A stretch of DNA of 64,000 nt from Nocardioides mesophilus (GTDB lineage: Bacteria > Actinomycetota > Actinomycetes > Propionibacteriales > Nocardioidaceae): contig NZ_CP060713.1 in the NCBI RefSeq assembly GCF_014395785.1, positions 462,501-526,500 on the forward strand, read 5' to 3'. A program made the translations under genes and the position numbers. Shown here piece by piece: positions 2,732-60,388 of this stretch. The notes below the pieces were generated by a model. That model was not told the origin of the DNA. It made no database searches and worked only from the letters and a program-made list of their open reading frames with translations. The stretch's first letter is position 1; each line of letters starts with the position of its first letter.

Positions 2732-3166
2732 TCAGTCCTCGAGGTGCTTGCGCAGACCGGTGAGAGTGCTCTCGACCAGGCCCTTGATCACCCGGTTCCG
2801 CAGGAAGCCGGGCAGCGGGAGGTTGTGGTGGATGGTGAGGTCGTAGGTCACCGAGGTCCGGTCCGGCGCCACCTCCCGGATCACGTAGCGCCCCTCCTGC
2901 CCGGTCTGCAGCCGGCCCTTCACCATCGTCCAGCTCAGCCCGTCCTCGTGGTGCGCGTAGGACAGCGTGTACTCGTCGGTGCCGACGGTGGCGGACGCGC
3001 GGAAGCGGGCGGTCACCGCCAGGCCGTCCGCGTCGACCTCGAGCAGCTCCGCCTCGAGGATCTCCGGGATCCACTCCGGCTGGCTCTCCACGTCACGGAG
3101 GGTGGCGAGCACGTCGGCGAAGGAAGCCTTGACCTCGATCGCGTCGGTGGCGTGGTCAGTGGGCAT
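2732..3166 (-). CDS. SRPBCC (polyketide cyclase-like) protein
   Basis: 144-residue START/SRPBCC-fold protein of the kind that binds hydrophobic ligands in a deep cavity. The family pattern is visible: an N-terminal strand and helix with 'FADVLATLRDVESQPEWIPEI', a central antiparallel sheet, and a long C-terminal helix ending the protein. The ATG at 3166 lies inside the last codons of the acyltransferase gene (11-base overlap), so the two are translationally coupled. That coupling suggests a lipid- or acyl-related ligand, but this is inference only; many such proteins have no known role. Confidence 0.8.
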   Translation of the reverse strand: MPTDHATDAIEVKASFADVLATLRDVESQPEWIPEILEAELLEVDADGLAVTARFRASATVGTDEYTLSYAHHEDGLSWTMVKGRLQTGQEGRYVIREVAPDRTSVTYDLTIHHNLPLPGFLRNRVIKGLVESTLTGLRKHLED

Positions 3167-4556
3167 CGGAGGTCTTCTCCCGGGCCGGTTGCGCGGCGCC
3201 GGCGAGCTCCAGCACCTCGTCGAAGCCCGCTACCAGGCACGTGCGGAAGACGTCGAAGTCCGGGATCGCCCCGGTGTCGACGTTGATGCCGAGCGCACAG
3301 GTGTCGACGTACGTCATCAGCGTGACGTTGACACTCGCTCCGATGGTGGGGCCGAAGGCGTACTGCATCCGGACGGCGGCGCCGCCGATGTAGGCGGCGA
3401 CCGGCAGCCCCGGGACGTCGCTGGCGAGGAAGTCGACGTGGCGCAGGATCGCGCCGACGTACCAGCGCGGCAGCAGGTTCAGCCCACCCGCGATCGCCTG
3501 GGTGTGCGGCAGGGACCGTTCGGCACGGGCGGCGGACGCCCGGACATGGATCTGCCTGATCCGCTCCGCGGGGTCCACCACTCCCACCGGCAGCGCGAAG
3601 CGCATGAGCGTCAGCCGGTTCCCGCCGACGGCGTCGGCCTCGGTGCGGATGCTGATCGGCATGGTCACCCGGAGCTCGCCCACGTCGGCGCCGTGCTCGG
3701 CGTGGTAGCGCCGCAGTCCGCCGGTCACCCCGGCGAGGAAGGCGTCGTTGAGGCTGCCACCGGCGCGGTGACCCGCCTCCTTGAGCGCGGCGAACGGCAC
3801 CTCGTGCACGCCCAGCTCACGGATCATCCGACGCCGCCGCATGATCGGCGAGGAGGTGTCGTTGATCGGACGCACCGTCCGGTACACCGACGCCGTGGTG
3901 GCCAGCGCCGAGCGGACGCTGCCCCGCGGGTGCCGCACGCTCCCCACGACACGGGCGGGCGTGGCCAGCGCACCCCGCACCAGCGAGGTGGCCAGCGCGG
4001 CGTCGTACTGCAACGCGCCGCGCAACCCGTCCATCGCGCCGGTGCCCGGGCTCCGGGGCACCGGCGGCATCGGGCCGAGGTCTCGCGGTTTGCGCTTCAG
4101 GTCGAAGAGCAGCCGGGAGATCTGCACCCCGCCGATGCCGTCGGCGAGGGAGTGGTGCAACCGGACCACGAGGGCGGCCCCGCCGTCCGACAGCCCGTCG
4201 ACCAGCACGACTCCCCACATCGGCCGGGCGTGGTCGAACTCGTCCATCTCCGCGCGCCGGGCCATCTCCATGACGGTGTCGAACGTGCCGGGAGCCGGAG
4301 CCAGGATGCGGCGTAGGTGGTAGCGGAGGTCGAAGTCCGGGTCGACCACCCACCGCGGCGGCGCCGGGGGCAGCGTGGGCACCACCCGCTGCCGGAACAT
4401 CGGCACCAACCGTGCGACCCGCTCGAAGCGGTCGCAGAGGACCTGCCAGTCCGGGGACCGGTCCAACAGGATCACCGAGACGACCGTCGACCGGAGTCTC
4501 GCGTCCGCCTCCATCCCCAGTGCGAACGCGTCCGTGTTGCGCATGAACTCGACCAT
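3156..4556 (-). CDS. Wax ester synthase/diacylglycerol acyltransferase (WS/DGAT)
   Basis: Membrane-associated acyltransferase that joins acyl-CoA to diacylglycerol or fatty alcohols, forming storage triacylglycerols or wax esters. The catalytic HHxxxDG motif is present as HHSLADG at residues 134-140, with the family PLW-like region (ARPMWGV) about 25 residues before it. The C-terminal DUF1298-type half follows, with the SDVPGLP segment. Length (466 residues) is normal. A start at the internal ATG for MRNTDAF, 12 bases in, is also possible. It overlaps the SRPBCC gene and is divergent from the MFS gene; the shared upstream region holds palindrome copy 2. Confidence 0.9.
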   Translation of the reverse strand: MVEFMRNTDAFALGMEADARLRSTVVSVILLDRSPDWQVLCDRFERVARLVPMFRQRVVPTLPPAPPRWVVDPDFDLRYHLRRILAPAPGTFDTVMEMARRAEMDEFDHARPMWGVVLVDGLSDGGAALVVRLHHSLADGIGGVQISRLLFDLKRKPRDLGPMPPVPRSPGTGAMDGLRGALQYDAALATSLVRGALATPARVVGSVRHPRGSVRSALATTASVYRTVRPINDTSSPIMRRRRMIRELGVHEVPFAALKEAGHRAGGSLNDAFLAGVTGGLRRYHAEHGADVGELRVTMPISIRTEADAVGGNRLTLMRFALPVGVVDPAERIRQIHVRASAARAERSLPHTQAIAGGLNLLPRWYVGAILRHVDFLASDVPGLPVAAYIGGAAVRMQYAFGPTIGASVNVTLMTYVDTCALGINVDTGAIPDFDVFRTCLVAGFDEVLELAGAAQPAREKTSDAH

Positions 4557-4739: not shown

Positions 4740-6179
4740 ATGGCCGGGCATGTCACGCAGGATCGTTCCGCGCAGGCGCTGCGACGCGTGCTCGTCCCGT
4801 TGGCGCTGGCGCAGTTCATCTGCAGCTTCGCCGGCTCGAACATGAACGTGATGATCAACGACATCAGCCGCGACCTGGACACCACCGTGCAGGGCGTGCA
4901 GCTGGCGATCACGATCTTCCTGCTGGTGATGGCGGCGCTGATGATCCCGGGCGGCAAGCTGACCGACCGCTACGGCCGCAAGCGCTGCTTCACCGCAGGT
5001 CTCGCCCTCTACGGCGTCGGCGCGGTCCTGAGCGCGGTCTCGCCCGGGCTCGGGGTCCTCATCCTGGGCAACTCGATCCTCGAGGGAGTCGGCACCGCGT
5101 TGCTGATCCCACCGGTCTACATCCTGACCACGCTGCTGTACACCGGGGTGACCGCGCGGGCCAAGGCGTTCGGCACCATCAGCGCGGCGGGCGGCGTCGG
5201 CGCGGCGGCGGGCCCGCTCATCGGTGGGCTGATCACCACCGCGATCAGTTGGCGGGCGGCCTTCGTGTTCCAGGCGCTGGTCATCGTGGCCATCCTCTGG
5301 TTGAGCCGGCACGTGGTGGACCCGCTCCCCGCCGACCCCACGCGGTCCTTCGACACCAGCGGCGCGATCCTGTCCGCCCTGGGTCTCGTGCTCGTCGTGA
5401 TGGGCATCATGAGCGCCGACGACAGCGGCTGGCTGATGGTCGGGCTGATGGCCGCCGGCGCCCTGCTGCTCCTGTGGTTCTTCCTCGGAGTACGCGCCAA
5501 GGAGCGGGCCGGCAAGGAACCGCTGCTCTCGACCAGTCTGTTCCGCAACCGCACCTCCAACCTGGGCCTGGTCACGCAGAACACCCAGTGGCTGATGCTG
5601 ATGGGCGCGTCCTTCGTGGTCTCGGCGTACCTGCAGGTGGTCCGCGGCTACAACGCCATCGAGACCGGCGTGATCTTCACCGCGGCCACGGTGGGCCTGC
5701 TGGCGGCCTCGCTCGAGGCCGAGCGGTTCGCCCGGCGTCGCAGCCAGCGGACCCTGATCGTCGCCGGCTTCCTCGTGACCGTCGTCGGCGTCGCCGTGCT
5801 GCTGGTCATGGTGAAGGGGTCACCGAACCCGTGGGCGTTCGCCCCGGGCCTGTTCCTGATCGGCTTCGGGGTCGGCGGCATGCTGACCCCGTCGGTGAAC
5901 ATCGTTCAGTCGAGCTTCGGGGAGGACCGACAGGGAGAGATCTCCGGTCTGTCCCGCAGCGTCTCCAACCTGGGGTCCTCGCTCGGTACGGCGATCGCCG
6001 GCACCGTGCTGGTCGCGGGCATCTCCTCCACGCCGAGTCGTGCCTACGCAGCCGCCATGATCGTGCTGGCCGCCGTCGCACTGGTCGGCCTCGTCGCGGC
6101 CCTCCTGCTGCCCAAGACGCCTGCACCGAGCCCGGCCGCGCACCGCGGTCAGAAGTCGGCCCGCCCCGGAAAGGGCTGA
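4740..6179 (+). CDS. MFS drug-type exporter, DHA2 (14-TM) family
   Basis: 479-residue major facilitator of the EmrB/QacA type, expected to export toxic compounds using the proton gradient. The loop 2-3 signature is present as GKLTDRYGRKR, and a motif-C-like GVGAAAGPLIGG segment in helix 5 marks an antiporter. About 14 hydrophobic helices can be counted, and the C-terminal tail is short and basic. The ATG at 4740 is chosen; an in-frame GTG at 4734 is an alternative because AGGGG precedes both. It stands alone on the plus strand, divergent from the WS/DGAT gene. The substrate is not predictable. Confidence 0.9.
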   Translation: MAGHVTQDRSAQALRRVLVPLALAQFICSFAGSNMNVMINDISRDLDTTVQGVQLAITIFLLVMAALMIPGGKLTDRYGRKRCFTAGLALYGVGAVLSAVSPGLGVLILGNSILEGVGTALLIPPVYILTTLLYTGVTARAKAFGTISAAGGVGAAAGPLIGGLITTAISWRAAFVFQALVIVAILWLSRHVVDPLPADPTRSFDTSGAILSALGLVLVVMGIMSADDSGWLMVGLMAAGALLLLWFFLGVRAKERAGKEPLLSTSLFRNRTSNLGLVTQNTQWLMLMGASFVVSAYLQVVRGYNAIETGVIFTAATVGLLAASLEAERFARRRSQRTLIVAGFLVTVVGVAVLLVMVKGSPNPWAFAPGLFLIGFGVGGMLTPSVNIVQSSFGEDRQGEISGLSRSVSNLGSSLGTAIAGTVLVAGISSTPSRAYAAAMIVLAAVALVGLVAALLLPKTPAPSPAAHRGQKSARPGKG

Positions 6180-6976: not shown

Positions 6977-7822
6977 ATGTCCATCGCTTCCGCCTCCGAT
7001 GGCTGGACAACAATCCGGGAGAACCGCGAAGAGATCATCGAGCGCTGGAGCAAGGTCGCCGGTCAGTCGCTGGGCGGTCGGATCACCCAGACCGAGCTCA
7101 AACGGGACGTTCGCGAGATGTTCGAGGCCCTCGCCGATGCCCCGCACGTCGAGGATCACGACCTCACCGACAGCGCGTTCTCCGACCTGAGGGCCCTCCT
7201 CGCTGACGTGGCGCGGACCCGCGTCCGCCAAGGCTTCAGCCCCACGGAGACCGCGATCGGCGTGTTCGCAGTCAAGCAAGCCGTGCTCGAGCTGCTGGAG
7301 TCTCAGGGCGACCTGGCGAGCTACAAGTTCTTCGCGGAGTTCTCCCGGTTCGTCGACGATCTCGGGCTGTACATGCTGGACACCTACGCCCAGACTCGGG
7401 AGTCGGTGATCGCCGGCCAGACGGAGGCGTTGCTCGAGCTCTCCACGCCGGTGGTGAAGCTGTGGGAGGGGATCGTCGCTCTCCCCCTGGTAGGCATCCT
7501 GGACTCCGCACGCACCCAGGTCGCCATGGAGACGCTTCTCAAGACGCTGGTGAGCACAGGCTCCGAGCACGCCATCATCGACATCACCGGCGTGTCGGCG
7601 GTCGACACCCAAGTGGCGCAGAATCTCCTGAAGACAGTCAGGGCAGCCCGACTGCTGGGCACCGAGTGCATCATCTCGGGGATCCGTCCACAGATCGCCC
7701 AAACCATGGTCGGCCTGGGCATCGAGTTCGGGGACGTCTCCACCAAGGCCTCCCTCGCGGACGCCCTGCTCCTTGCGCTGCGAAGGTCCGGAAACGATGT
7801 CGTCAAGCGTCAACGGGCCTGA
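6977..7822 (+). CDS. rsbR: RsbR-type stressosome co-antagonist
   Basis: First gene of a six-gene partner-switching operon. The 281-residue product has an N-terminal all-helical sensor-like domain (about 1-145, globin-like in known RsbR proteins) and a C-terminal STAS domain (about 155-275). Both phosphorylatable threonines of Bacillus RsbRA have counterparts, T211 in VDTQVA and T243 in RPQIAQT. In the family model RsbR and RsbS form a large complex that holds the kinase RsbT until stress. The ATG at 6977 follows GGAG (6965-6968) at 8 bases; the GTG 9 bases earlier overlaps that site and is less likely. The stimulus cannot be inferred. Confidence 0.92.
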   Translation: MSIASASDGWTTIRENREEIIERWSKVAGQSLGGRITQTELKRDVREMFEALADAPHVEDHDLTDSAFSDLRALLADVARTRVRQGFSPTETAIGVFAVKQAVLELLESQGDLASYKFFAEFSRFVDDLGLYMLDTYAQTRESVIAGQTEALLELSTPVVKLWEGIVALPLVGILDSARTQVAMETLLKTLVSTGSEHAIIDITGVSAVDTQVAQNLLKTVRAARLLGTECIISGIRPQIAQTMVGLGIEFGDVSTKASLADALLLALRRSGNDVVKRQRA

Positions 7823-7831
7823 GGACCGTTG

Positions 7832-8242
7832 ATGGACCGAATCCCTATCCTGCGCATCGGTGACATCTTGCTGGTGTCCGTGCAGTTCGACCTGCAGGAC
7901 CGCATCGCGACGGCGCTCCAGGAGGATCTCGCCGCACGCATCGTCGAGACTTCGGCGAATGGTGTGCTCATCGACATCTCGGCGCTGGAGATCGTGGACA
8001 GCTTCGTCGGCCGGATGATCAACACGGTCGCATCCGTGTCGCGAGTTCTGGACGCCGAGACGGTCGTCGTCGGCATGCGCCCGGCTGTGGCGATCACCCT
8101 CGTCGAGCTGGGGCTCTCCTTGCCGGGTGTCCGCACAGCGCTCGACCTGGACCGTGGGCTGGCCATGCTGACCGGTGAGCAGGTGAAGGCGGAGGAGATC
8201 GCCGGGACCGACGACGACACCGGCGGGACCGCGGCCGGCTGA
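7832..8242 (+). CDS. rsbS: RsbS-type STAS antagonist
   Basis: 136-residue single-domain STAS protein, the second component of the RsbR-RsbS scaffold. The phosphorylation site is conserved as S57 in ALEIVDSFVGR, matching S59 of Bacillus RsbS, and the following PAVAITLVELG segment is highly characteristic. In the known mechanism RsbT phosphorylates this serine and is then released. GAGGACC precedes the ATG, and only 9 bases separate it from rsbR; its stop overlaps the next start (TGATG), indicating coupled translation. Confidence 0.93.
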   Translation: MDRIPILRIGDILLVSVQFDLQDRIATALQEDLAARIVETSANGVLIDISALEIVDSFVGRMINTVASVSRVLDAETVVVGMRPAVAITLVELGLSLPGVRTALDLDRGLAMLTGEQVKAEEIAGTDDDTGGTAAG

Positions 8243-8661
8243 TGAACGCGTCGATCTCGGTCGATCCCCGCGAGACCCACGAGCTCCACTCGGATGCGGA
8301 TGTGGTCCGCGTCCGACAGCTGGCGCGCGCGCTCGCTGTGAGCGCGGAGTTCTCCCTGGTGGACCAGACCAAGCTCGTGACCGCCGTGAGCGAGCTCGCC
8401 CGCAACACTCTGCTCTACGGCGGGGGCGGAACCGCCGAGCTCGAGCTGGTGACCGAAGGTGACCGAAGGGGTGTCCGGGCTACGTTCACCGACAAGGGAC
8501 CGGGGATCGCAGACATCGCCCTCGCACTGACCGACGGCTGGTCCAGCGGCACCGGCATGGGCCTCGGGCTGCCCGGCGCCCGGCGCCTCGTCGACGACTT
8601 CGACCTGCAGTCCAGTCCTGGGGTGGGCACCACCGTCAGTGTCGTCAAGTGGTCGCCATGA
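8242..8661 (+). CDS. rsbT: RsbT-type switch kinase
   Basis: 139-residue GHKL-fold serine/threonine kinase. The N box is ELARNTLLYGGGG, the G1 box DKGPGIAD and the G2 region GTGMGLGLPGARRL, all needed for ATP binding. In the family model it phosphorylates RsbS and RsbR, then leaves the complex and activates an RsbU-like phosphatase. Here two SpoIIE-type phosphatases follow in the same operon, giving obvious candidate partners. Start and stop both overlap the neighbours (TGATG and ATGA). Confidence 0.93.
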   Translation: MNASISVDPRETHELHSDADVVRVRQLARALAVSAEFSLVDQTKLVTAVSELARNTLLYGGGGTAELELVTEGDRRGVRATFTDKGPGIADIALALTDGWSSGTGMGLGLPGARRLVDDFDLQSSPGVGTTVSVVKWSP

Positions 8662-9692
8662 GCCCTCCGGAACGAAGCGACGGCGGCGCCCTCGTGGCCG
8701 AGGACGTCGTCTGGCTCCGGGTGGAAGACGACACAGGGCCAGGAACGGTGCGGCGACGCGTGGTCGACCTGGCACAGCGGATGGGGCTGAACGTGGCCCG
8801 GACCGGCGAGGTCGCGATCGTGGCGACCGAGCTGTCGACCAACCTGGTCAAGCACGCCCGGGAAGGGGTCGTCGTTCTGCGCACCCTGTGGCGTGGCGGG
8901 GTCGGCGGCGTGGAGATCGTCGCCCTGGACCACGGGCCGGGCATGCGTGACGTCCGCGGCCTCTTCGGCAACGGGACCTCCACAACGGGCACCCTCGGCA
9001 TCGGGCTGGGCGCCGTACGTCGACTGTCCAGTCGTTACGACGTGCACTCCGTTCCTGGCCGGGGGACGGTGGTGACGGCCAGCTTCTGGCAGGACGCGCC
9101 CGACACCGAGGAGCTGACCGCCGGTCTCACCAGGACGCTGGCCGGCGAGAGCGAGTGCGGCGACGCCTATGCCGTGCGCCAGGTCCCGGACGGCTTTCTG
9201 CTGTTGTCGGTCGACGGACTTGGGCACGGCCCCCTCGCGGCCCGCGCAGCGACGGCGGCCACGCGAATCTTCCGTGACTCCCGCCAGGTGTCGCCGGGTG
9301 CGCTGATGACGGAGCTGCACCGCGGCCTGTCCCACACCCGAGGAGCTGCAGCCGCGATCGGTCACCTCGACCTGGGGGTCGGCCGCCTCACCTACAGCGG
9401 GATCGGCAACATCACCGGCAGGATCGTCACCGCTGAGCGGATGCGCAGCCTGGCCACCTATCCCGGCATTGTCGGACACAACGCCCTCGCTGTCCGGGAG
9501 ACGGTCTACGACGTCGTGCCGGGTGCTTGGGTCGTGCTGCACAGCGATGGCCTCAGCGAGAAGTGGGACATCGCTGACTATCCAGGGGTTCTCGAGCACA
9601 CTCCGCTCGTGCTCGCGGCGACCCTGATCCGCGAGGCCGCGAACGTCCGCGACGACGCCAGCGTGCTCGTCGCCAAGGCGGGAGGGGCATGA
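8658..9692 (+). CDS. GHKL ATPase-SpoIIE phosphatase fusion (RsbX-like)
   Basis: 344 residues with two domains: an anti-sigma-type GHKL ATPase domain (about 15-145; ELSTNLVKHA, DHGPGMRD, TGTLGIGLGAVRRL) and a PP2C/SpoIIE phosphatase domain (about 150-344; ECGDAY, LLSVDGLGHG, LHSDGLSE). Such proteins are predicted to dephosphorylate RsbR/RsbS and reset the switch, as RsbX does, but carry their own kinase-like domain as well. The ATG at 8658 overlaps the rsbT stop as ATGA; an earlier GTG exists at 8649. Whether the ATPase half is an active kinase is not known. Confidence 0.88.
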   Translation: MSPPERSDGGALVAEDVVWLRVEDDTGPGTVRRRVVDLAQRMGLNVARTGEVAIVATELSTNLVKHAREGVVVLRTLWRGGVGGVEIVALDHGPGMRDVRGLFGNGTSTTGTLGIGLGAVRRLSSRYDVHSVPGRGTVVTASFWQDAPDTEELTAGLTRTLAGESECGDAYAVRQVPDGFLLLSVDGLGHGPLAARAATAATRIFRDSRQVSPGALMTELHRGLSHTRGAAAAIGHLDLGVGRLTYSGIGNITGRIVTAERMRSLATYPGIVGHNALAVRETVYDVVPGAWVVLHSDGLSEKWDIADYPGVLEHTPLVLAATLIREAANVRDDASVLVAKAGGA

Positions 9693-11068
9693 GCGAACCG
9701 ATCTACACCCTCGAGCTGCGCGAGGAGCGTGACGTTTTCGCTGCTCGTCAGGCCGGTCGTGAGGTGGCCGCCGCCGTCGGCCTCGACGACCTGGACCAGG
9801 TCCGGATCGCGACGGCGCTCAGTGAGGTGAGCCGTGACGTCGTCGCGGCCGGTGGCGGGGACGTCACGTTCAGCGTCAGGACCCCCGACCTGTTCTTCGT
9901 CGAGCTGGTGACCTCAGGGCAGGAACCGGCGCTGCGTCGCCAGCAGGCAGACACCGGCGGGGTCGACGCCGCCCGGCGGCTCGTCGACACCGTGACGCTG
10001 ACCACCGACCCCGATGGGCATGCCGTCCTCACGCTCGTCAAGCAGGTCATGCGAGTGGTGGAGCTCGGTGACAAGGCTCGCACCGAGCTGCAGCAGCGCG
10101 TGTCGTCGACCATGTGGCGCGATCCCCTCGACGAGCTCCGCGCCCAGAACCGGGAGCTCGTCACAGCGCTGGAGGAGGTGCGGGCCCGGCGTGACGAGCT
10201 GGTGTCGGTCAACAAGGAGCTCGAGGAGACCAACCGGGGCGTGGTCGCACTCTACGAGGAGCTCTCGGGCGAGCTGGAGACCACGAACCAGGGAGTCGTG
10301 GCGCTCTACGCCGAGATCGACGACAAGAACCGTCGGCTCCGGGAGGCGAGCGAGGCGAAGACCCGCTTCCTGCGCTACATCAGCCACGAGCTGAGGACTC
10401 CCGGCAACTCGGTCCTGGGACTCGCTCGGCTGCTCCTGGACAAGTCGGCCGATCCCTTGACCGAGGAGCAGCGCCAGCAGATCTTCTTCATCGAGACCAG
10501 TGCGCGCGATCTGATCCGGCTGGTCAACGACCTCCTCGACCTTGCGAAAGCCGAGTCGGGACGCATCGAACCGCGGTGGCAGGAGGTCGACCTCCGGGCG
10601 CTCTTCGATGACCTGCGGGGAACGATCGCGCCGCTGGTGGCCGACGGCGTCGACCTGGTCGTCGAGGACCCGAGCCCGGTCGGCCCGATCAGGTCCGATC
10701 CGACCCTCCTCGGACACGTGCTGCGCAACCTGCTCAGCAACGCGGCCAACTTCACGCTGGTCGGCGAAGTGCGGCTGTCGACGGAGCGCGATGGCTCAGC
10801 GGTCCGCTTCACCGTGCACGACACGGGCATCGGAATCGCCGAGGAGGACCGGACCCATGTCTTCGAGGAGTTCTTCCAGGTGCGCACCCCGCCGCGCGCG
10901 GGAGGCCGGGGCTCCGGCCTGGGCCTTCCCTTCGCGCGCCGGGTCGCACTGATCCTCGGGGGCGACGTCCGTCTGTCCGGTACCCCTGTCGGCGGCAGCA
11001 CGTTCGTCGTGGAGGTGCCGGTCCACGGCCCACCGGACGCCGCGCCGCGCGAGGACCCGGAACCATGA
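9689..11068 (+). CDS. Histidine kinase with N-terminal GHKL-like domain
   Basis: 459 residues. An N-terminal region (about 1-125) resembles an RsbT/RsbW-type ATPase but lacks a clear N box, so it may be a binding domain only. A coiled coil follows (about 145-222) with a duplicated ETNRGVVALYEEL / ETTNQGVVALYAEI unit. Then come a dimerisation domain with SHELRTP (H233) and a catalytic domain with RNLLSNAANFT, DTGIGI and GSGLGLPF. No transmembrane segment is seen, so it is a soluble sensor. It overlaps both neighbours by ATGA and probably phosphorylates the REC domain of the next gene. Confidence 0.9.
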   Translation: MSEPIYTLELREERDVFAARQAGREVAAAVGLDDLDQVRIATALSEVSRDVVAAGGGDVTFSVRTPDLFFVELVTSGQEPALRRQQADTGGVDAARRLVDTVTLTTDPDGHAVLTLVKQVMRVVELGDKARTELQQRVSSTMWRDPLDELRAQNRELVTALEEVRARRDELVSVNKELEETNRGVVALYEELSGELETTNQGVVALYAEIDDKNRRLREASEAKTRFLRYISHELRTPGNSVLGLARLLLDKSADPLTEEQRQQIFFIETSARDLIRLVNDLLDLAKAESGRIEPRWQEVDLRALFDDLRGTIAPLVADGVDLVVEDPSPVGPIRSDPTLLGHVLRNLLSNAANFTLVGEVRLSTERDGSAVRFTVHDTGIGIAEEDRTHVFEEFFQVRTPPRAGGRGSGLGLPFARRVALILGGDVRLSGTPVGGSTFVVEVPVHGPPDAAPREDPEP

Positions 11069-12642
11069 AGGGCCCGTTCGACGCCTGCGTGCTGGTCTGC
11101 GACGACACCCCGGCCAAGCGGTACGTCATCTCCAGCTGGCTCCGCCGAGAGGGCTTCACCGTGCTGGAGGCGGAGACCGGGGCCCAGGCCATCGAGATCG
11201 CCCAGGGCGGCGACATCGACCTGGCCGTCCTCGATGTACACCTGCCCGACATGACCGGACTCGACGTGTGCGCCATCATCAAGCGCGACCCCCACACAGC
11301 GGCGACACCGGTCATGCACATCTCAGCCGTCGCGGTGGAGCCGGAGGACCGCAGCGCCGGCCTGGAGAATGGTGCGGACGCCTACATGGTGGACCCCATC
11401 GAGCCCGTGGAGATGATCTCGATGGTCCGTTCGCTGCTGCGTTCATCGAAGGCGCGCCGCTCCTCCGAGCGGCTCACCGCCCGCCTGCAGCAGCTGGCGA
11501 CGGCCAGCCTGCGCATCAACGTCGCGCTCAACGCCGTACGGGTGGCTGCGGCCGCCTCGGAGGCCGCCGCCCGGGTGCTCGAGACCGAGTGCCTCGTCGT
11601 GCTGGTCAATGCACCGGACCCGGCGACGGCGGCGCGAACGGACGCGGCGGGGACCACCTCGACCTGGGAGCTGTCCATCGATCTGGCGGCGGCATTGCTG
11701 CAGGGGGCGGTGCAGTCGTCCGAGATCCACGCCGCCGACGCCCCGTGGAAGACGCTCCTGGCCGGCTGCTACGACGGTCCTTGGCGCATCACCCCGGTCC
11801 ACAACAGGGGCCAGAAGGTCGGGCTCATCCTTGTCCCGGCGCCCGCCCTCGCCGGAGACGACGACGAGATGCTGCTCGGGCGGCTCGTGCAGACCGTCTC
11901 GGTCACCCTGGGAAACCTCCTGGTCTTCTTGGAGAAGCACCGCACGTCGCTCGCACTGCAACGCAGCCTCCTGCCGGCGAACCTGCCGTCGTTGCCCGGG
12001 CTGGTCATCGCCGCCCGATACACGGCCTCCGACGAGCAAGCGGAGGTCGGCGGGGACTTCTTCGACGCGTTCCAGGTCGACGACGGCAGCACCGTGGTGG
12101 TGATCGGCGACGTTCAAGGCCACTCCTTGGAGGCGGCCGTCGTCATGGCCGAGCTGCGCTACTCGCTCCGCGCATATGCGTACGAAGGGCTCACCCCCGC
12201 CGAGGTGCTGAGTCGGGTCAACGGCATCCTCATGCGCGGCCACGACGAGATGACCGCCACCGTGTGCCTGCTGATGTTCTCCGCCGACCACCAGACGTTG
12301 GTCGTGGCCAACGCCGGCCACCTTCCCCCCTTGATCGTCCTCGACGGAGTGGCGAAGTACGTCGACCACGGCGGCTCGCTGCTGGGCGTGGACTACCCGC
12401 CGGACCAGCCGTTGGTCGTGCCGCGCCCGACGGGCGCCCGGATCCTCCTGATGACCGACGGCCTCGTCGAGCGACGAGGTGAGGACATGACTCTGGCGAT
12501 GGACCGGCTCGCCGGCGTTCTCGAGGACACCATCCACGTGCCCGTCGAGCCGCTCTGCGACCAGCTGATGGAGCAGTGGGGCGGCGGCGACGACGACGTC
12601 GCGCTGATCCTTCTCGACGTCGTCGATCCCCCACGGACCTGA
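11065..12642 (+). CDS. REC-SpoIIE phosphatase response regulator
   Basis: 525 residues: receiver domain (1-125), a linker region that may be GAF-like (about 135-300) and a PP2C/SpoIIE phosphatase domain (about 310-520; VGGDFFDAF, VIGDVQGHS, LLMTDGL). The receiver keeps the acidic pair D13/D14, the phosphoacceptor D57 in LAVLDVHLPDM and S87, but the invariant lysine is replaced by aspartate (D110 in ADAYMVDPIEP). By analogy with RsbU it should dephosphorylate a STAS anti-anti-sigma protein that is not encoded here. It ends the operon; a tRNA on the other strand follows 25 bases later. Confidence 0.92.
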   Translation: MKGPFDACVLVCDDTPAKRYVISSWLRREGFTVLEAETGAQAIEIAQGGDIDLAVLDVHLPDMTGLDVCAIIKRDPHTAATPVMHISAVAVEPEDRSAGLENGADAYMVDPIEPVEMISMVRSLLRSSKARRSSERLTARLQQLATASLRINVALNAVRVAAAASEAAARVLETECLVVLVNAPDPATAARTDAAGTTSTWELSIDLAAALLQGAVQSSEIHAADAPWKTLLAGCYDGPWRITPVHNRGQKVGLILVPAPALAGDDDEMLLGRLVQTVSVTLGNLLVFLEKHRTSLALQRSLLPANLPSLPGLVIAARYTASDEQAEVGGDFFDAFQVDDGSTVVVIGDVQGHSLEAAVVMAELRYSLRAYAYEGLTPAEVLSRVNGILMRGHDEMTATVCLLMFSADHQTLVVANAGHLPPLIVLDGVAKYVDHGGSLLGVDYPPDQPLVVPRPTGARILLMTDGLVERRGEDMTLAMDRLAGVLEDTIHVPVEPLCDQLMEQWGGGDDDVALILLDVVDPPRT

Positions 12643-12667
12643 GACGCGAAACCGCAGGTCAGCGGAG

Positions 12668-12741
12668 TAGGGCGGGTGGGGCTCGAACCCACGACCCAAG
12701 GATTATGAGTCCTCTGCTCTGACCGACTGAGCTACCGCCCC
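12668..12741 (-). tRNA. tRNA with CAU anticodon (elongator Met or Ile2)
   Basis: 74-base cloverleaf on the minus strand. The acceptor stem GGGGCGG pairs with CCGCCCT (first pair G-U), the anticodon stem GAGGA pairs with TCCTT around the loop CTCATAA, the T arm is GTGGG-TTCGAGC-CCCAC, and the discriminator is A73. The CCA end is not encoded. A CAU anticodon can mean elongator Met or Ile2 (lysidine-modified). The D arm and variable loop look more like Ile2 to me, but this is not decisive. Confidence 0.9.
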
Positions 12742-13812: not shown

Positions 13813-15186
13813 ATGAGCCACCACCGCTTGCTGTTCCCGGGTCTGCTGCTGGGGCTGCTCGCCGCCGGACCGATCGGCATGGCGGCGGCCGAGGACGGCA
13901 CCCCGGCCCCGGGTACGTCGTCCAGCGCATCGTCCAGCGCATCGTCCAGCGCATCGCCCAGCGGGTCTATCAGCAGCTCCCCCAGCGACGTCCCCTCCCC
14001 CACGGCCGACGAGTCCACCCCGCCGCCGCCGACGAACCAGGCGCCGGTCCCGGGCGCCGACGAGGCGTCGGTCGACGCCGGCGGGTCGGTGCAGATCGAC
14101 GTGCTGGCCAACGACACCGACCCCGAAGCCGGTGCACTGCGGGTCGTCGACGCCAGCAGGGCCGGCGGCCGGGTCACGTTCACCGACCGGGACGTCACCT
14201 TCACCGCGGGGATCGGGGACGCCGGCGACTTCACGCTGCACTACACGGTCAGCGACCCCGAAGGGCTCACCGCGGTCGGGGACCTCACCGTCCACGTCGT
14301 CGCGGCCCCGGCGCGCCAGGTGTCGATCCACCTGGCCTCGGACCCGGTGGCGCTGCGCCGCTACGCGATCAGCGGGCGGGTGCTCCCCGACGGCGCCTCT
14401 GCCGGGTCGGCGGTCACCGTGCAGCGTCGTACCCCCGACGGCTGGTCGCGCTTCGCCACTACCACCGCCGACGCCGACGGACGCTGGTCGGTGCCGTTCC
14501 AGACCAACCGCCCCGGCGGTGTGGTGTTCCGCGCCAAGGTCGCCCTCCGCGACGGCACTCGGGCGGTCTCCGCGACGCTGCGCCGCACCGTCGTGGTCCG
14601 CGCCGACGCGTCGGTCTCGGGCCCGCTGACCGCCTCGCAGGTCCCCTACTCCTACCGGCCCGGTTGCCCGGTCGCGCCCTCGGGGCTGCGCAAGGTGAGC
14701 ATCAACCGGCTCGACTACCGCGGCCGGATCAGCCGCGGCACGATCGTGGTGCGCGCGTCCGCGGCGCCGACGATCGTCCGGGTCTTCACCGCGGCGATCA
14801 ACCAGCGCTTCCCGGTCCGCAAGATGAAGCCCACCGACGCCTACTACGCCGGCGGCAGCCGGACCCCGATGGAGTCGGACAAGGCTGCCATGCGCGCCGG
14901 GAACACGTCGGCATTCAACTGCCGACCCGTGACTGGCAACCCCTACCGGGTCTCGCAGCACTCCTACGGCAACGCGATCGACATCAACACCATCGAGAAT
15001 CCCTACGTGACCGGGAGCCAGGTCTACCCCAGCGGCTCCGGCAGCTACCTCGACCGCTCGCCCTACCGGCGCGGCATGATCCTCTCCGGCGGCGTCGTCG
15101 CCGGCAGGATGCGGGCGGACGGCTGGCTGTGGGGTGCCCGCTGGTCCCACCCCGACTACCAGCACTTCTCCTCCAACGGCGGCTGA
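13813..15186 (+). CDS. Secreted M15-family (VanY-type) peptidase with Ig-like domain
   Basis: 457 residues. A signal peptide is followed by a Ser/Ala linker encoded partly by three perfect 12-base repeats (13921-13956). Next is a cadherin/Big-type domain (about 75-165; VLANDTDPEAG), a second beta domain, and a C-terminal D-alanyl-D-alanine carboxypeptidase-like domain (about 320-457). Zinc ligands are visible: H383 and D390 in HSYGNAIDIN, and H451 in YQHF near the end. It likely cleaves peptidoglycan stem peptides outside the membrane. It follows a lipoprotein gene and precedes a PIG-L deacetylase, all on the plus strand. Confidence 0.88.
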   Translation: MSHHRLLFPGLLLGLLAAGPIGMAAAEDGTPAPGTSSSASSSASSSASPSGSISSSPSDVPSPTADESTPPPPTNQAPVPGADEASVDAGGSVQIDVLANDTDPEAGALRVVDASRAGGRVTFTDRDVTFTAGIGDAGDFTLHYTVSDPEGLTAVGDLTVHVVAAPARQVSIHLASDPVALRRYAISGRVLPDGASAGSAVTVQRRTPDGWSRFATTTADADGRWSVPFQTNRPGGVVFRAKVALRDGTRAVSATLRRTVVVRADASVSGPLTASQVPYSYRPGCPVAPSGLRKVSINRLDYRGRISRGTIVVRASAAPTIVRVFTAAINQRFPVRKMKPTDAYYAGGSRTPMESDKAAMRAGNTSAFNCRPVTGNPYRVSQHSYGNAIDINTIENPYVTGSQVYPSGSGSYLDRSPYRRGMILSGGVVAGRMRADGWLWGARWSHPDYQHFSSNGG

Positions 15187-15201: not shown

Positions 15202-15966
15202 ATGACCGAGACCTCCAGCACTCCTCCCCCGCCGCTCGAACCGCTCTCCGAGGACTGGGAGCGCATGCTGTGTGTCGTCGCGCATCCCGACGACCTGGAG
15301 TTCGGCGCCGCCGCCGCCGTGGCCCGCTGGACCGGGCAGGGCAAGCAGGTCGCCTACTGCATGGTCACCAGCGGCGAGGCCGGCATCGACGGGCTCGAGC
15401 CCGAGAAGAGCCGCGGCGTGCGCGAGCAGGAGCAGATCACCTCTGCGCAGCTGGTCGGCGTCGACGAGGTCGAGTTCCTGCGGCTGCCGGACGGTGTCCT
15501 GGAGTACGGGGTCGACCTGCGCCGCTCGATCGCCGCCGTGGTGCGGATGTACCGGCCCGAGATCGTGGTGACCGGGAACTTCCGCGACTCCTTCGGCGAG
15601 GGTGGTGGGCTCAACCAGGCCGATCACATCGCCACCGGACGCGCCGTGCTGGACGCCGTGCGCGATGCCGGGAACCGGTGGGTGTTCCGCGACCAGGTCG
15701 AGGCCGGCGGCCTGGAGCCCTGGGGCGGCGTGCGCGAGGTCTGGGCGGCGGCGTCCCCGCTGGCCCGTCACGGGGTCGACATCACCGACACCTTCGACGC
15801 CGGGGTGGCGTCGCTGGAGGCGCACCGGGCCTACATCGACGGGCTGGGCTGGGAGGACTTCGACCCGGCGGAGTTCCTCGAGGGGATGTCGCGCGCGACC
15901 GGACAGCGGATGGGCGTCGCGCACGCCACCGCGTTCGAGGTGTTCTCGCTCGGCTGGGGCGGCTGA
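15202..15966 (+). CDS. PIG-L (LmbE) family deacetylase
   Basis: 254-residue zinc-dependent N-acetylglucosamine-type deacetylase. The metal and catalytic motif AHPDDLEFG is at residues 27-35, and the third zinc ligand is in the NQADH segment near residue 143. Relatives in actinobacteria act in mycothiol synthesis or detoxification (MshB, Mca) or on other GlcNAc conjugates. The segment after the first motif (TSGEAGIDG) is typical of a subgroup of unknown substrate, so I do not assign mshB. It begins 15 bases after the peptidase gene and is followed by a strong hairpin. Confidence 0.85.
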   Translation: MTETSSTPPPPLEPLSEDWERMLCVVAHPDDLEFGAAAAVARWTGQGKQVAYCMVTSGEAGIDGLEPEKSRGVREQEQITSAQLVGVDEVEFLRLPDGVLEYGVDLRRSIAAVVRMYRPEIVVTGNFRDSFGEGGGLNQADHIATGRAVLDAVRDAGNRWVFRDQVEAGGLEPWGGVREVWAAASPLARHGVDITDTFDAGVASLEAHRAYIDGLGWEDFDPAEFLEGMSRATGQRMGVAHATAFEVFSLGWGG

Positions 15967-59411: not shown

Positions 59412-59762
59412 TCACCCCGGCGGCCACGTCATCGGCCGGCCGCCGAGGACGTGCAGGTGCGCGTGGAAGACCGTCTGGTGGGCGGCCGCGCCGGTGTTGA
59501 AGACCAGCCGGTAGCCCTCCAGCCCGTCCAGCTCGGCCACCGCGGCGGCTGCCCGGGTGAGCTCGAGGAAGGTCTCCGGCTCGGCCTCGACCAGCTCGGC
59601 GGCGTTCTCGTAGTGGCTGCGCGGCACCACCAGGACGTGCGTCGGCGCCTGCGGCGCGACGTCGCGGAAGGCCAGCGTCGTCTTCGTCTCGTGCACCACC
59701 GTCGCCGGGATCTCCCCGGCGACGATCTTGCAGAACAGGCAGTCGCTCGGTGCGGTCGGCAT
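59412..59762 (-). CDS. HIT-family nucleotide hydrolase
   Basis: 116-residue histidine triad protein of the HINT type, cleaving AMP from phosphoramidates such as AMP-lysine adducts. The triad HAHLH is at residues 100-104, followed by GGRPM. The N-terminal zinc-type CLFCKI is present. ATG at 59762 has TACCCT 6 bases upstream, so it is probably leaderless; the longer frame is not needed. Standard position between rsmE and phoH in this order, here with the copper protein inserted. Confidence 0.94.
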   Translation of the reverse strand: MPTAPSDCLFCKIVAGEIPATVVHETKTTLAFRDVAPQAPTHVLVVPRSHYENAAELVEAEPETFLELTRAAAAVAELDGLEGYRLVFNTGAAAHQTVFHAHLHVLGGRPMTWPPG

Positions 59763-59875
59763 GTCGTCAGGGTAGTCGCGGCTCCGGCGCGTCCCGCGGT
59801 AAACCGAAGGTCCGGCCCGCGCGTGCAACTAGCGTGACCATGGACCTGCTCCTGCGACCTCGACCTGGGGGTGCG

Positions 59876-60388
59876 ATGACGACCGCCCGTCCCACCTGGG
59901 ACGCCGACACGGCCGTCGAGGAGCTGTACGCCGGGCACTACCGCCAGCTGGTCCGCCTCTCGGTGCTGCTGGTCCGCGACCGGGAGACCGCCGAGGAGGT
60001 CGTCCAGGACGCCTTCGTGGCGATGCACGGCCGCTGGCGCTCGCTGCGGGAGCCGGACAAGGCGCTGGCCTACCTGCGCCAGGCCGTGGTGAACAGGTCC
60101 CGCTCGGTGCTGCGCCGCCGGGTGGTCGCGTCCCGCTACGTCCCGCCGGTGCGGCCGGACGGCTCGGGCGCGGACGCCGACGTGCTGGTCGCCGAGCGCC
60201 GGACCGAGGTCCTCGACGCGCTCCGGGCGCTCCCGGACCGGCAGCGCGAGGTGCTCGCGCTGCGCTACTACCTCGACCTGAGCGAGGCGCAGATCGCCGA
60301 GACCCTCGGGATCAGCCGCGGCGCGGTCAAGAGCCACGCCTCCCGCGGCGCCGCCGCGCTGCGCCCCCTGCTGAAGGACCTGCCATGA
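59876..60388 (+). CDS. ECF sigma factor, SigE-family
   Basis: 170-residue extracytoplasmic-function sigma factor. Region 2 (LYAGHYRQLVRLSVLLVRDRETAEEVVQDAFVAMHG) and region 4 (LPDRQREVLALRYYLDLSEAQIAETLGISRGAVKSH) are complete, matching the short SigE-type group of actinobacteria. The ATG at 59876 has GGGGG upstream; an ATG at 59840 is possible. A TAGCGT -10 lies at 59830. It overlaps the next gene by ATGA; that membrane protein may regulate it. Confidence 0.92.
   Translation: MTTARPTWDADTAVEELYAGHYRQLVRLSVLLVRDRETAEEVVQDAFVAMHGRWRSLREPDKALAYLRQAVVNRSRSVLRRRVVASRYVPPVRPDGSGADADVLVAERRTEVLDALRALPDRQREVLALRYYLDLSEAQIAETLGISRGAVKSHASRGAAALRPLLKDLP

Follow-up and report, generated by a model that had tools for sequence, protein, structure and literature searches.

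We analysed a window of 64,000 nucleotides of the Nocardioides mesophilus genome (positions 462501-526500 of NZ_CP060713.1, the single contig of a 4.49 Mb genome), in which six consecutive open reading frames on the plus strand (6977-12642 of the window) encode RsbR, RsbS, RsbT, an ATPase-phosphatase fusion that we call AX, a histidine kinase (HK) and an output protein joining a receiver (REC) to a SpoIIE phosphatase (Table 1). A sequence-only reading of this DNA had named the six genes in this order, and both the open reading frames and Pfam agree with it except for the kinase, which had been called hybrid and consists of HisKA and HATPase_c without a receiver. The spacings from the first gene to the sixth are 6, -1, -13, -4 and -4 bp. 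Translational coupling, claimed for the whole operon, is plausible across the four overlapping junctions, and the first junction (RsbR/RsbS) is near but not overlapping. Pfam detected no sigma factor, RsbV or RsbW among the six proteins, as that reading had stated, nor an RsbU with RsbU_N and PP2C domains, so that the content of a Bacillus-type SigB operon is missing from them. Two features go beyond the sequence-only reading, namely an RsbT-like domain at the N-terminus of HK and a receiver without the conserved Lys.

Table 1. Genes and domains of the six-gene operon, in window coordinates.
Feature	Position	Strand	Description and basis
RsbR	6977..7822	+	RsbRD_N sensor and STAS (Pfam); matches stressosome RsbR in PDB 7o0i/7b0u/6qcm
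RsbS	7829..8242	+	STAS scaffold (Pfam); PDB RsbS 6qcm at 6e-32
RsbT	8242..8661	+	GHKL switch kinase; N-box, DxGxG and glycine motif intact
AX	8649..9692	+	RsbT-like ATPase fused to RsbX-class phosphatase (Pfam HATPase and SpoIIE)
AX, RsbT-like ATPase domain (residues 33-145)	8745..9083	+	Pfam HATPase_c_2
AX, RsbX-class phosphatase domain (residues 159-345)	9123..9683	+	profile match to PDB
HK, not hybrid	9689..11068	+	Pfam HisKA and HATPase_c
HK, putative RsbT-derived N-terminal domain (residues 1-122), ATP site degenerate	9689..10054	+	hhalign, Foldseek, VIA, motif loss
HK, predicted signalling coiled coil (residues 146-224), repeated ETNxGVxALY-like motif	10124..10360	+	AlphaFold2 model, alignment
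HK, HisKA; phospho-acceptor H233 at 10385-10387	10355..10561	+	Pfam
HK, catalytic HATPase_c (residues 337-445)	10697..11023	+	Pfam
Output phosphatase, REC-coil-GAF-like-coil-SpoIIE	11065..12642	+	Pfam; AlphaFold2 model
Output, receiver; D57 at 11233-11235, position 110 (11392-11394) is Asp	11089..11430	+	43-sequence alignment
Output, GAF-like linker domain	11521..11844	+	secondary structure of model; no Pfam match in window protein
Output, SpoIIE (PP2C/PPM) phosphatase domain	12079..12621	+	Pfam 5.7e-40

Residue counts refer to 43 sequences, the window and 42 further loci. By sequence the stressosome core is intact, because the phosphorylatable residues of RsbR (T211 and T243) and RsbS (S58) as well as the N-box, DxGxG and glycine motif of RsbT are each kept in 43/43. 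We take these Thr and Ser residues to be equivalent to the known phosphorylation sites of Bacillus subtilis. RsbS starts with TTG and the next ATG lies at 7832. The best match to RsbT elsewhere in the genome, outside the operon, reaches E 0.0015. Together, an RsbR with sensor, STAS domain and Thr residues, an RsbS with its Ser, an intact RsbT and an adjacent RsbX-class phosphatase (as ATPase fusion) make up an RsbRSTX module.

By its sequence, the last of these, AX, is best read as a feedback phosphatase of the RsbX class to which an RsbT-like ATPase domain is fused. The profile built from ten AX proteins matched PDB entry 3zt9 at 9.3e-30 and B. subtilis RsbX (3w40) at 2.7e-18, with other SpoIIE-family phosphatases at 0.004-0.008; 3zt9 is deposited as SpoIIE and we take it to be an RsbX-like protein of Moorella. 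The ATPase motifs are largely intact (N-box 41/43, DxGxG 43/43, glycine motif 34/43). A role of AX as the output phosphatase was considered and rejected, given that the profile places it in the RsbX class. With AX in this feedback class, the REC-SpoIIE protein plausibly acts as the operon's output phosphatase.

The connection between the two halves of the operon may lie in the first part of HK. Aligned by hhalign, its first 225 residues matched RsbT with 96.9% probability (E 1.7e-10, 112 columns). An AlphaFold2 model of residues 1-225, built from five sequences (predicted local distance difference test 84.2), retrieved B. subtilis RsbW in Foldseek (E 3.1e-6, target TM 0.84) and was superimposed by VIA-align on, among others, RsbW 6m36 (Z 15.8, root-mean-square deviation (rmsd) 1.6 over 100 residues), UsfX 8ih8 (Z 15.2, rmsd 2.4/118) and SpoIIAB 1th8 (Z 14.8, rmsd 3.1/117). 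The best histidine-kinase catalytic domain, 3ehh, reached Z 8.8 with an rmsd of 2.5 over 88 residues. As judged by the model, the first ~120 residues of HK are a switch-kinase domain of RsbT/RsbW fold. A second histidine-kinase-type catalytic domain was also considered for this region and rejected, the model fold being of the switch-kinase type (Z 15.8 vs 8.8). The kinship with RsbW and SpoIIAB is seen only via the model fold and the profile-profile comparison with RsbT. In the HisKA part of HK, H233, which the sequence-only reading had named as the possible phosphate donor to D57, is present in 43/43. A C-terminal REC occurs on 11/24 kinases scanned, the window HK being among the 24 and itself without one. 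Such kinases are found in L131, L132, L137, L141, L142, L147-L149, L159 and other loci, and by eye the canonical Lys is kept in their receivers.

The ATP site of this N-terminal domain is degenerate. By regular expression, the N-box Asn was found in 0/43, DxGxG in 2/43 and the glycine motif in 5/43 HK sequences, and at the position of RsbT N55, which is Asn in 43/43 RsbT proteins, most of the 41 domain copies have E (28) or D (10). Other residues are kept in nearly all of these 41 copies (R20 41, R39 41, R49 40, S45 40, R24 39, E46 39), and beyond the first 50 residues the domain is poorly conserved. Thus, the domain of Actinobacteria is apparently a dead copy of RsbT which has retained residues of the RsbT family. 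In the alignment, the equivalent of HK R20 is RsbT R25, which aligns with an Arg at SpoIIAB position 20; this Arg20 presumably helps to dock the STAS protein SpoIIAA. An HK-domain profile matched 36 of 396 genomes of the phylum at E<=1e-6, which is no census of the domain since many of the matching frames are about 135-205 codons long, the size of RsbT itself. Frames of 362-446 codons matching the same profile in L212, L218, L233 and L234 possibly represent further architectures.

Such a domain could act in two ways on the kinase. Docking at the site of RsbT on the STAS proteins is the one we prefer; alternatively, free RsbT might bind the dead domain as a heterodimer and thereby switch the kinase, in which case the domain would be an RsbT receptor replacing RsbU_N and not a docking tag. 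GHKL switch kinases such as RsbW and SpoIIAB are taken to dimerise, and by within-locus BLASTP at E<1e-3 the HK N-terminus is nearer to the RsbT of its own locus (36/43) than to the AX ATPase (1/43; the domain is lacking in 2/43). The residues kept, however, include the position of SpoIIAB Arg20, which we assume to serve in docking to STAS proteins. RsbU_N, the usual RsbT receptor, is described on histidine kinases of some proteobacterial stressosome operons in the available part of PMC12143880, and we saw none in the 24 HKs and 18 of 43 output proteins scanned, a point in favour of the receptor reading. On the other hand, the intact domain of Deinococcus (see below) resembles a second RsbT and not a receptor, and overall we regard the heterodimer as unlikely.

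The output protein, encoded last, combines the receiver with a phosphatase via a GAF-like domain; GAF_3 was found at E 0.0028 in 1 of the 18 output proteins scanned, and among the relatives with a receiver on the kinase, the output protein of the L132/L138 type lacks the GAF-like domain. A model from five sequences (predicted local distance difference test 85.1) showed long helices at the linkers. Its PP2C domain (residues 300-524) matched 3ke6 by VIA with Z 26.4 and rmsd 2.6 over 223 residues, and the whole protein matched the REC-PP2C protein RssB (3eq2) with Z 23.7 over 365 residues at an rmsd of 12.4, a match that thus holds domain by domain. The receiver keeps D14 (43/43), D57 (43/43) and S87 (42/43, one Thr). 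D57, too, had been named in the sequence-only reading, and since it is kept, phosphorylation is possible. With H233 on the adjacent kinase, HK and REC-PP2C form a pair of the RsbKY/RsfSR type with phospho-His and phospho-Asp. Position 110, the canonical strand-5 Lys, is occupied by D (21 sequences), E (19), Q (2) or H (1), and by Lys in none (0/43); in the proteins of Deinococcus, Caballeronia and Embleya it is H, E and D, respectively. As a control, the other receiver matches in the genome (n=44, profile extraction) have Lys in 41, His in 2 and a gap in 1, and the extra C-terminal receivers of the hybrid relatives kept Lys in nine tails compared by eye. The switch of this receiver probably differs from the textbook switch, going by these residues.

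The sequence-only reading had let the release of RsbT and the kinase-receiver pair feed in parallel into this one PP2C, with RsbT engaging the REC-SpoIIE protein in the way it engages RsbU. The long linker helices of the output model would suit such a mechanism, considering that RsbT activates RsbU via an induced linker coiled coil, according to the part of PMC12143880 that was available. However, RsbU_N, the RsbT-binding domain of RsbU, was found in none of the 18 output proteins scanned (E<=0.01). Moreover, none of the three loci examined outside Actinobacteria (Ramlibacter, Deinococcus, Caballeronia) ends in a phosphatase gene, and R-S-T-AX-HK is kept there nonetheless. Within our sample, it is HK and not the PP2C that stays with the stressosome throughout as its downstream partner. 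A chain from the stressosome via HK to REC-SpoIIE is most likely, rather than two parallel inputs, because HK is the constant partner in these three loci, because the residues of its domain are kept with catalysis lost and because RsbU_N was not found. The parallel version thus has less support than a linear chain and we consider it improbable, whereas synteny lends strong support to the other half of the earlier proposal, in which stressosome and two-component pair belong to one unit.

An HK orthologue was found in 11/341 genomes of the family at E<=1e-55 and in 32/394 sampled genomes of the class, representing 19/137 genera, at E<=1e-50 (own genome counted in both cases). All six proteins are colinear and on the same strand in 42/42 other loci, a figure that is conditional on selection by the HK match. 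Ten of these loci belong to the family and 30 to other parts of the class sample; L004 (Sphaerisporangium) and L013 (Ramlibacter) complete the set. At L131, a contig end falls inside the last gene. By their labels, the 42 loci span at least seven families plus Ramlibacter, with genes often overlapping; the 13-base overlap of rsbT and AX recurs in 34/43 by a count by eye that is biased toward the window, as start codons were taken nearest to its alignment start. Among 60 loci listed, five had the operon (L001-L004, L013), and the other 55, with kinase or receiver domain matches alone at E<=1e-4, were dropped; the proteins of L001-L003 are identical to those of L095, L097 and L099 and were counted once. 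The last gene of Ramlibacter encodes receiver, PAS and histidine-kinase domains without SpoIIE, and we took it as the single SpoIIE-less member among the 18 scanned.

Two independent, merely co-expressed systems could also lie side by side, i.e. a stressosome with another client and an HK-REC-SpoIIE pair with its own signal, the dead domain being vestigial. The domain is missing from the HK of L160 and L013 and poorly conserved past its first 50 residues, both of which would fit a vestige. Yet the 42/42 colinear loci, their spread over families up to Ramlibacter and the frequent gene overlaps speak against independence, and the presence of R20, R24, R39, S45, E46 and R49 in 39-41/41 copies would not be expected for an unused domain. 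We therefore hold this alternative to be very unlikely. At L160, a gap of 249 bases separates AX from the kinase frame.

The order R-S-T-AX-HK was also found on plasmids, namely MP1 of Deinococcus radiodurans (L236), a Caballeronia plasmid (L237) and an Embleya plasmid (L238), the first two having a different last gene. In total, 88 plasmid records matched HK at E<=1e-40, and the match spans at least 80% of HK in 20. Such records are not independent, 15 of the first 20 rows being copies of one Deinococcus radiodurans plasmid. In the Rhizobium-type plasmid rows listed, the match to HK begins at residue 108 or later, and in one of them (L239) no stressosome genes are annotated beside the kinase.

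The cluster kinase of D. radiodurans, DR_RS15590 (L236:6914-8647), has an N-terminal RsbT domain in which N-box, DxGxG and glycine motif are all present. Its residues 13-127 match Pfam HATPase_c_2 with 45.7 bits (cut-off 27.4), and the domain shares 36% identity over 118 residues with the RsbT of its own cluster (E 1.3e-23). The HK domain of Caballeronia is degenerate, with 24% identity to its own RsbT (E 3.8e-4). We built a midpoint-rooted tree from 59 domains of 17 hand-picked loci out of the 43 plus L013, Deinococcus and Caballeronia. It grouped the AX ATPases (support 0.999), RsbT (0.815) and the degenerate HK domains including Caballeronia (0.988); the intact Deinococcus HK domain fell on the side of RsbT and AX with support 0.667, its exact place not being settled. 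The simplest history would be a fusion of RsbT to the kinase, with catalysis lost in some lineages and the domain dropped in a few, and the domain of DR_RS15590 may lie near the ancestor of the dead domain in our window. ATP-binding proteins or kinases of Sphingomonas and Paraburkholderia and a Streptomyces SpoIIE phosphatase (hits H49, H51, H52 and H55) match the Deinococcus RsbT domain and coil and are possibly further RsbT fusions.

From the observed domains, residues, synteny and model fold we infer the contacts, the direction of signalling and the target of the following scheme. RsbT is known to phosphorylate RsbS and RsbR under stress, and phosphatases of the RsbX class reset them; here, RsbT would do so likewise and AX would reset both. 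The RsbT-derived domain of HK would most likely dock at the site of RsbT on the stressosome STAS proteins, HK might be held or released together with RsbT, and its state of docking or release could be relayed along the coiled coil to HisKA-HATPase. D57 would then receive the phosphoryl group of H233, and this transfer would set the phosphatase activity of REC-SpoIIE, which may dephosphorylate an anti-anti-sigma factor encoded elsewhere (e.g. the STAS proteins at genome positions 2179544 or 70392), and the dephosphorylated protein would lead to release of the SigB/F-type sigma factor at 3234018. We tentatively propose, at somewhat less than even confidence, a stressosome with its own feedback phosphatase that is wired through the RsbT-derived domain of HK to a dedicated two-component output. 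A more far-reaching version appears possible but rather doubtful: HK would be a client of the stressosome, its fused RsbT copy (intact in Deinococcus, dead in Actinobacteria) would place His-Asp transfer under Ser/Thr partner switching, and the Lys-less receiver would be read non-canonically, e.g. active when unphosphorylated.

Candidates for the target were found outside the operon by searching the genome for RsbW, RsbV and sigma factors, in keeping with the earlier view that the output lies elsewhere. Genome-wide, there were 13 SpoIIE, 11 STAS and 37 HATPase_c_2 matches, those of the operon included. One sigma factor passed the SigB/F/G cut-off (match 3234042-3234710, 318.6 bits; gene 3234018-3234824), and the coding region overlaps with that of an RsbW-like protein at 3234821-3235204. 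Further candidate targets are a STAS and HATPase pair at 2179544-2180360, presumably akin to BldG/RsfB in sequence and context, and a SpoIIE-STAS-HATPase trio at 69728-71133.

Several points weigh against the scheme. The structural model of the HK N-terminus was built from five sequences, and this part of the window protein gave no Pfam match, was unmatched among 25 of 80 NCBIfam families listed and, as a profile together with the coil, retrieved coiled-coil and chance matches from the PDB and no switch kinase. The domain is not indispensable, because it is absent in 2/43 aligned operons (L160 and L013), and 68/88 of the plasmid records with an HK match cover less than 80% of HK in one place. 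A receiver without Lys makes ordinary phospho-switching doubtful, as far as its residues indicate. Every interaction in the docking model is predicted from sequence and model, and the target sigma factor is a guess because it was drawn from gene content. Of the 43 regions preceding rsbR, one contained a SigB/F-type promoter pattern, where shuffled sequences gave 0.93 on average; a stricter pattern occurred in none (0/43, shuffled 0.095). This gives no support for autoregulation. Further, a search for an interaction between RsbT and the kinase D1 of Vibrio vulnificus gave a negative result (PMC9237108 section 10).

Other genes surround the operon. Upstream in the window are a wax ester synthase/diacylglycerol acyltransferase (3156-4556, minus strand) and a major facilitator superfamily transporter (4740-6179, plus strand). 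A tRNA-Met gene (12667-12741, minus strand) follows 24 bases downstream on the opposite strand, then a protein with an M15 D-Ala-D-Ala carboxypeptidase domain and Ig/cadherin-like domains (13813-15186, plus strand) and a PIG-L deacetylase (15202-15966). Far downstream, an extracytoplasmic-function-type sigma factor (Sigma70_r2, r4_2) at 59750-60388 overlaps an open reading frame of 377 amino acids.

In comparison with known systems, RsbR, RsbS, RsbT and the RsbX-class protein resemble those of B. subtilis, with phosphorylatable residues at what we take to be the same places. Unlike the B. subtilis operon rsbRSTUVW-sigB-rsbX (PMC9237108), ours is without an RsbU_N phosphatase, RsbV, RsbW and sigma factor. 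The output protein has the REC-coil-PP2C build of Pseudomonas aeruginosa RssB (3eq2), with a GAF-like domain in addition; its receiver is without the Lys. A histidine kinase with a REC-PP2C partner is also known from RsfSR of Mycobacterium smegmatis, where RsfR has the anti-anti-sigma factor RsfB as its target and is a less active phosphatase when phosphorylated; Bacillus cereus RsbKY is mentioned in the same source (PMC10950880, available in part). In contrast to our HK, RsfS is described there as a putative membrane kinase with CHASE3, and the available part mentions no stressosome genes at its locus. A close described layout is that of V. vulnificus rsbRSTX-D1-D2, in which, according to the available parts of PMC9237108 and PMC10014275, RSTX precedes the kinase and regulator of a two-component system at a locus without an RsbU gene or sigma factor. 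It differs in its globin RsbR sensor, single-domain RsbX and an output thought to be related to cyclic di-GMP, and these parts mention no RsbT-like domain on D1, whereas our window has RsbRD_N, a fusion of RsbT-like and RsbX-class domains, the putative RsbT-derived domain on HK and REC-SpoIIE.

RSTX modules followed by kinases or receivers (PMC9237108 section 10; PMC10014275), HK and REC-PP2C pairs (PMC10950880) and RsbU_N kinases near rsbT (PMC12143880) are thus already known, as far as the available parts of these sources go. For an RsbT-derived domain on HK our searches of open-licence papers gave no description, and subscription papers may hold one; likewise, they gave none for a Lys-less receiver, with no search aimed at the lysine as such. 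For the way in which stressosomes without RsbU pass on their signal, this operon family offers a concrete candidate connector, the putative RsbT-derived domain of the kinase. A kinase with an apparently dead switch-kinase front end suggests a possible direct wiring of the stressosome to a two-component system and, if this is true, Ser/Thr partner switching would gain direct control over His-Asp phosphotransfer.

A close relative in architecture is the D. radiodurans cluster DR_RS15570-DR_RS15595 (MP1, L236), which shares the order R-S-T-AX-HK-REC protein and an HK with RsbT-type N-terminus and coiled coil. It differs in that the RsbT domain of HK is intact, HK carries a C-terminal REC and the last gene encodes REC-HisKA-HATPase and not REC-SpoIIE. 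Going by names, we presume this cluster to be the one containing DR_B0028/DR_B0029, with DR_RS15590 as DR_B0028. According to the available part of PMC6501615, which cites Makarova 2001, DR_B0028/DR_B0029 reportedly share their regulation with an operon for antisigma-factor regulation, and DR_B0028 was one of the proteins whose abundance rose after exposure to vacuum. The candidate connector domain occurs with intact motifs in D. radiodurans, a laboratory organism, and apparently dead in Actinobacteria.

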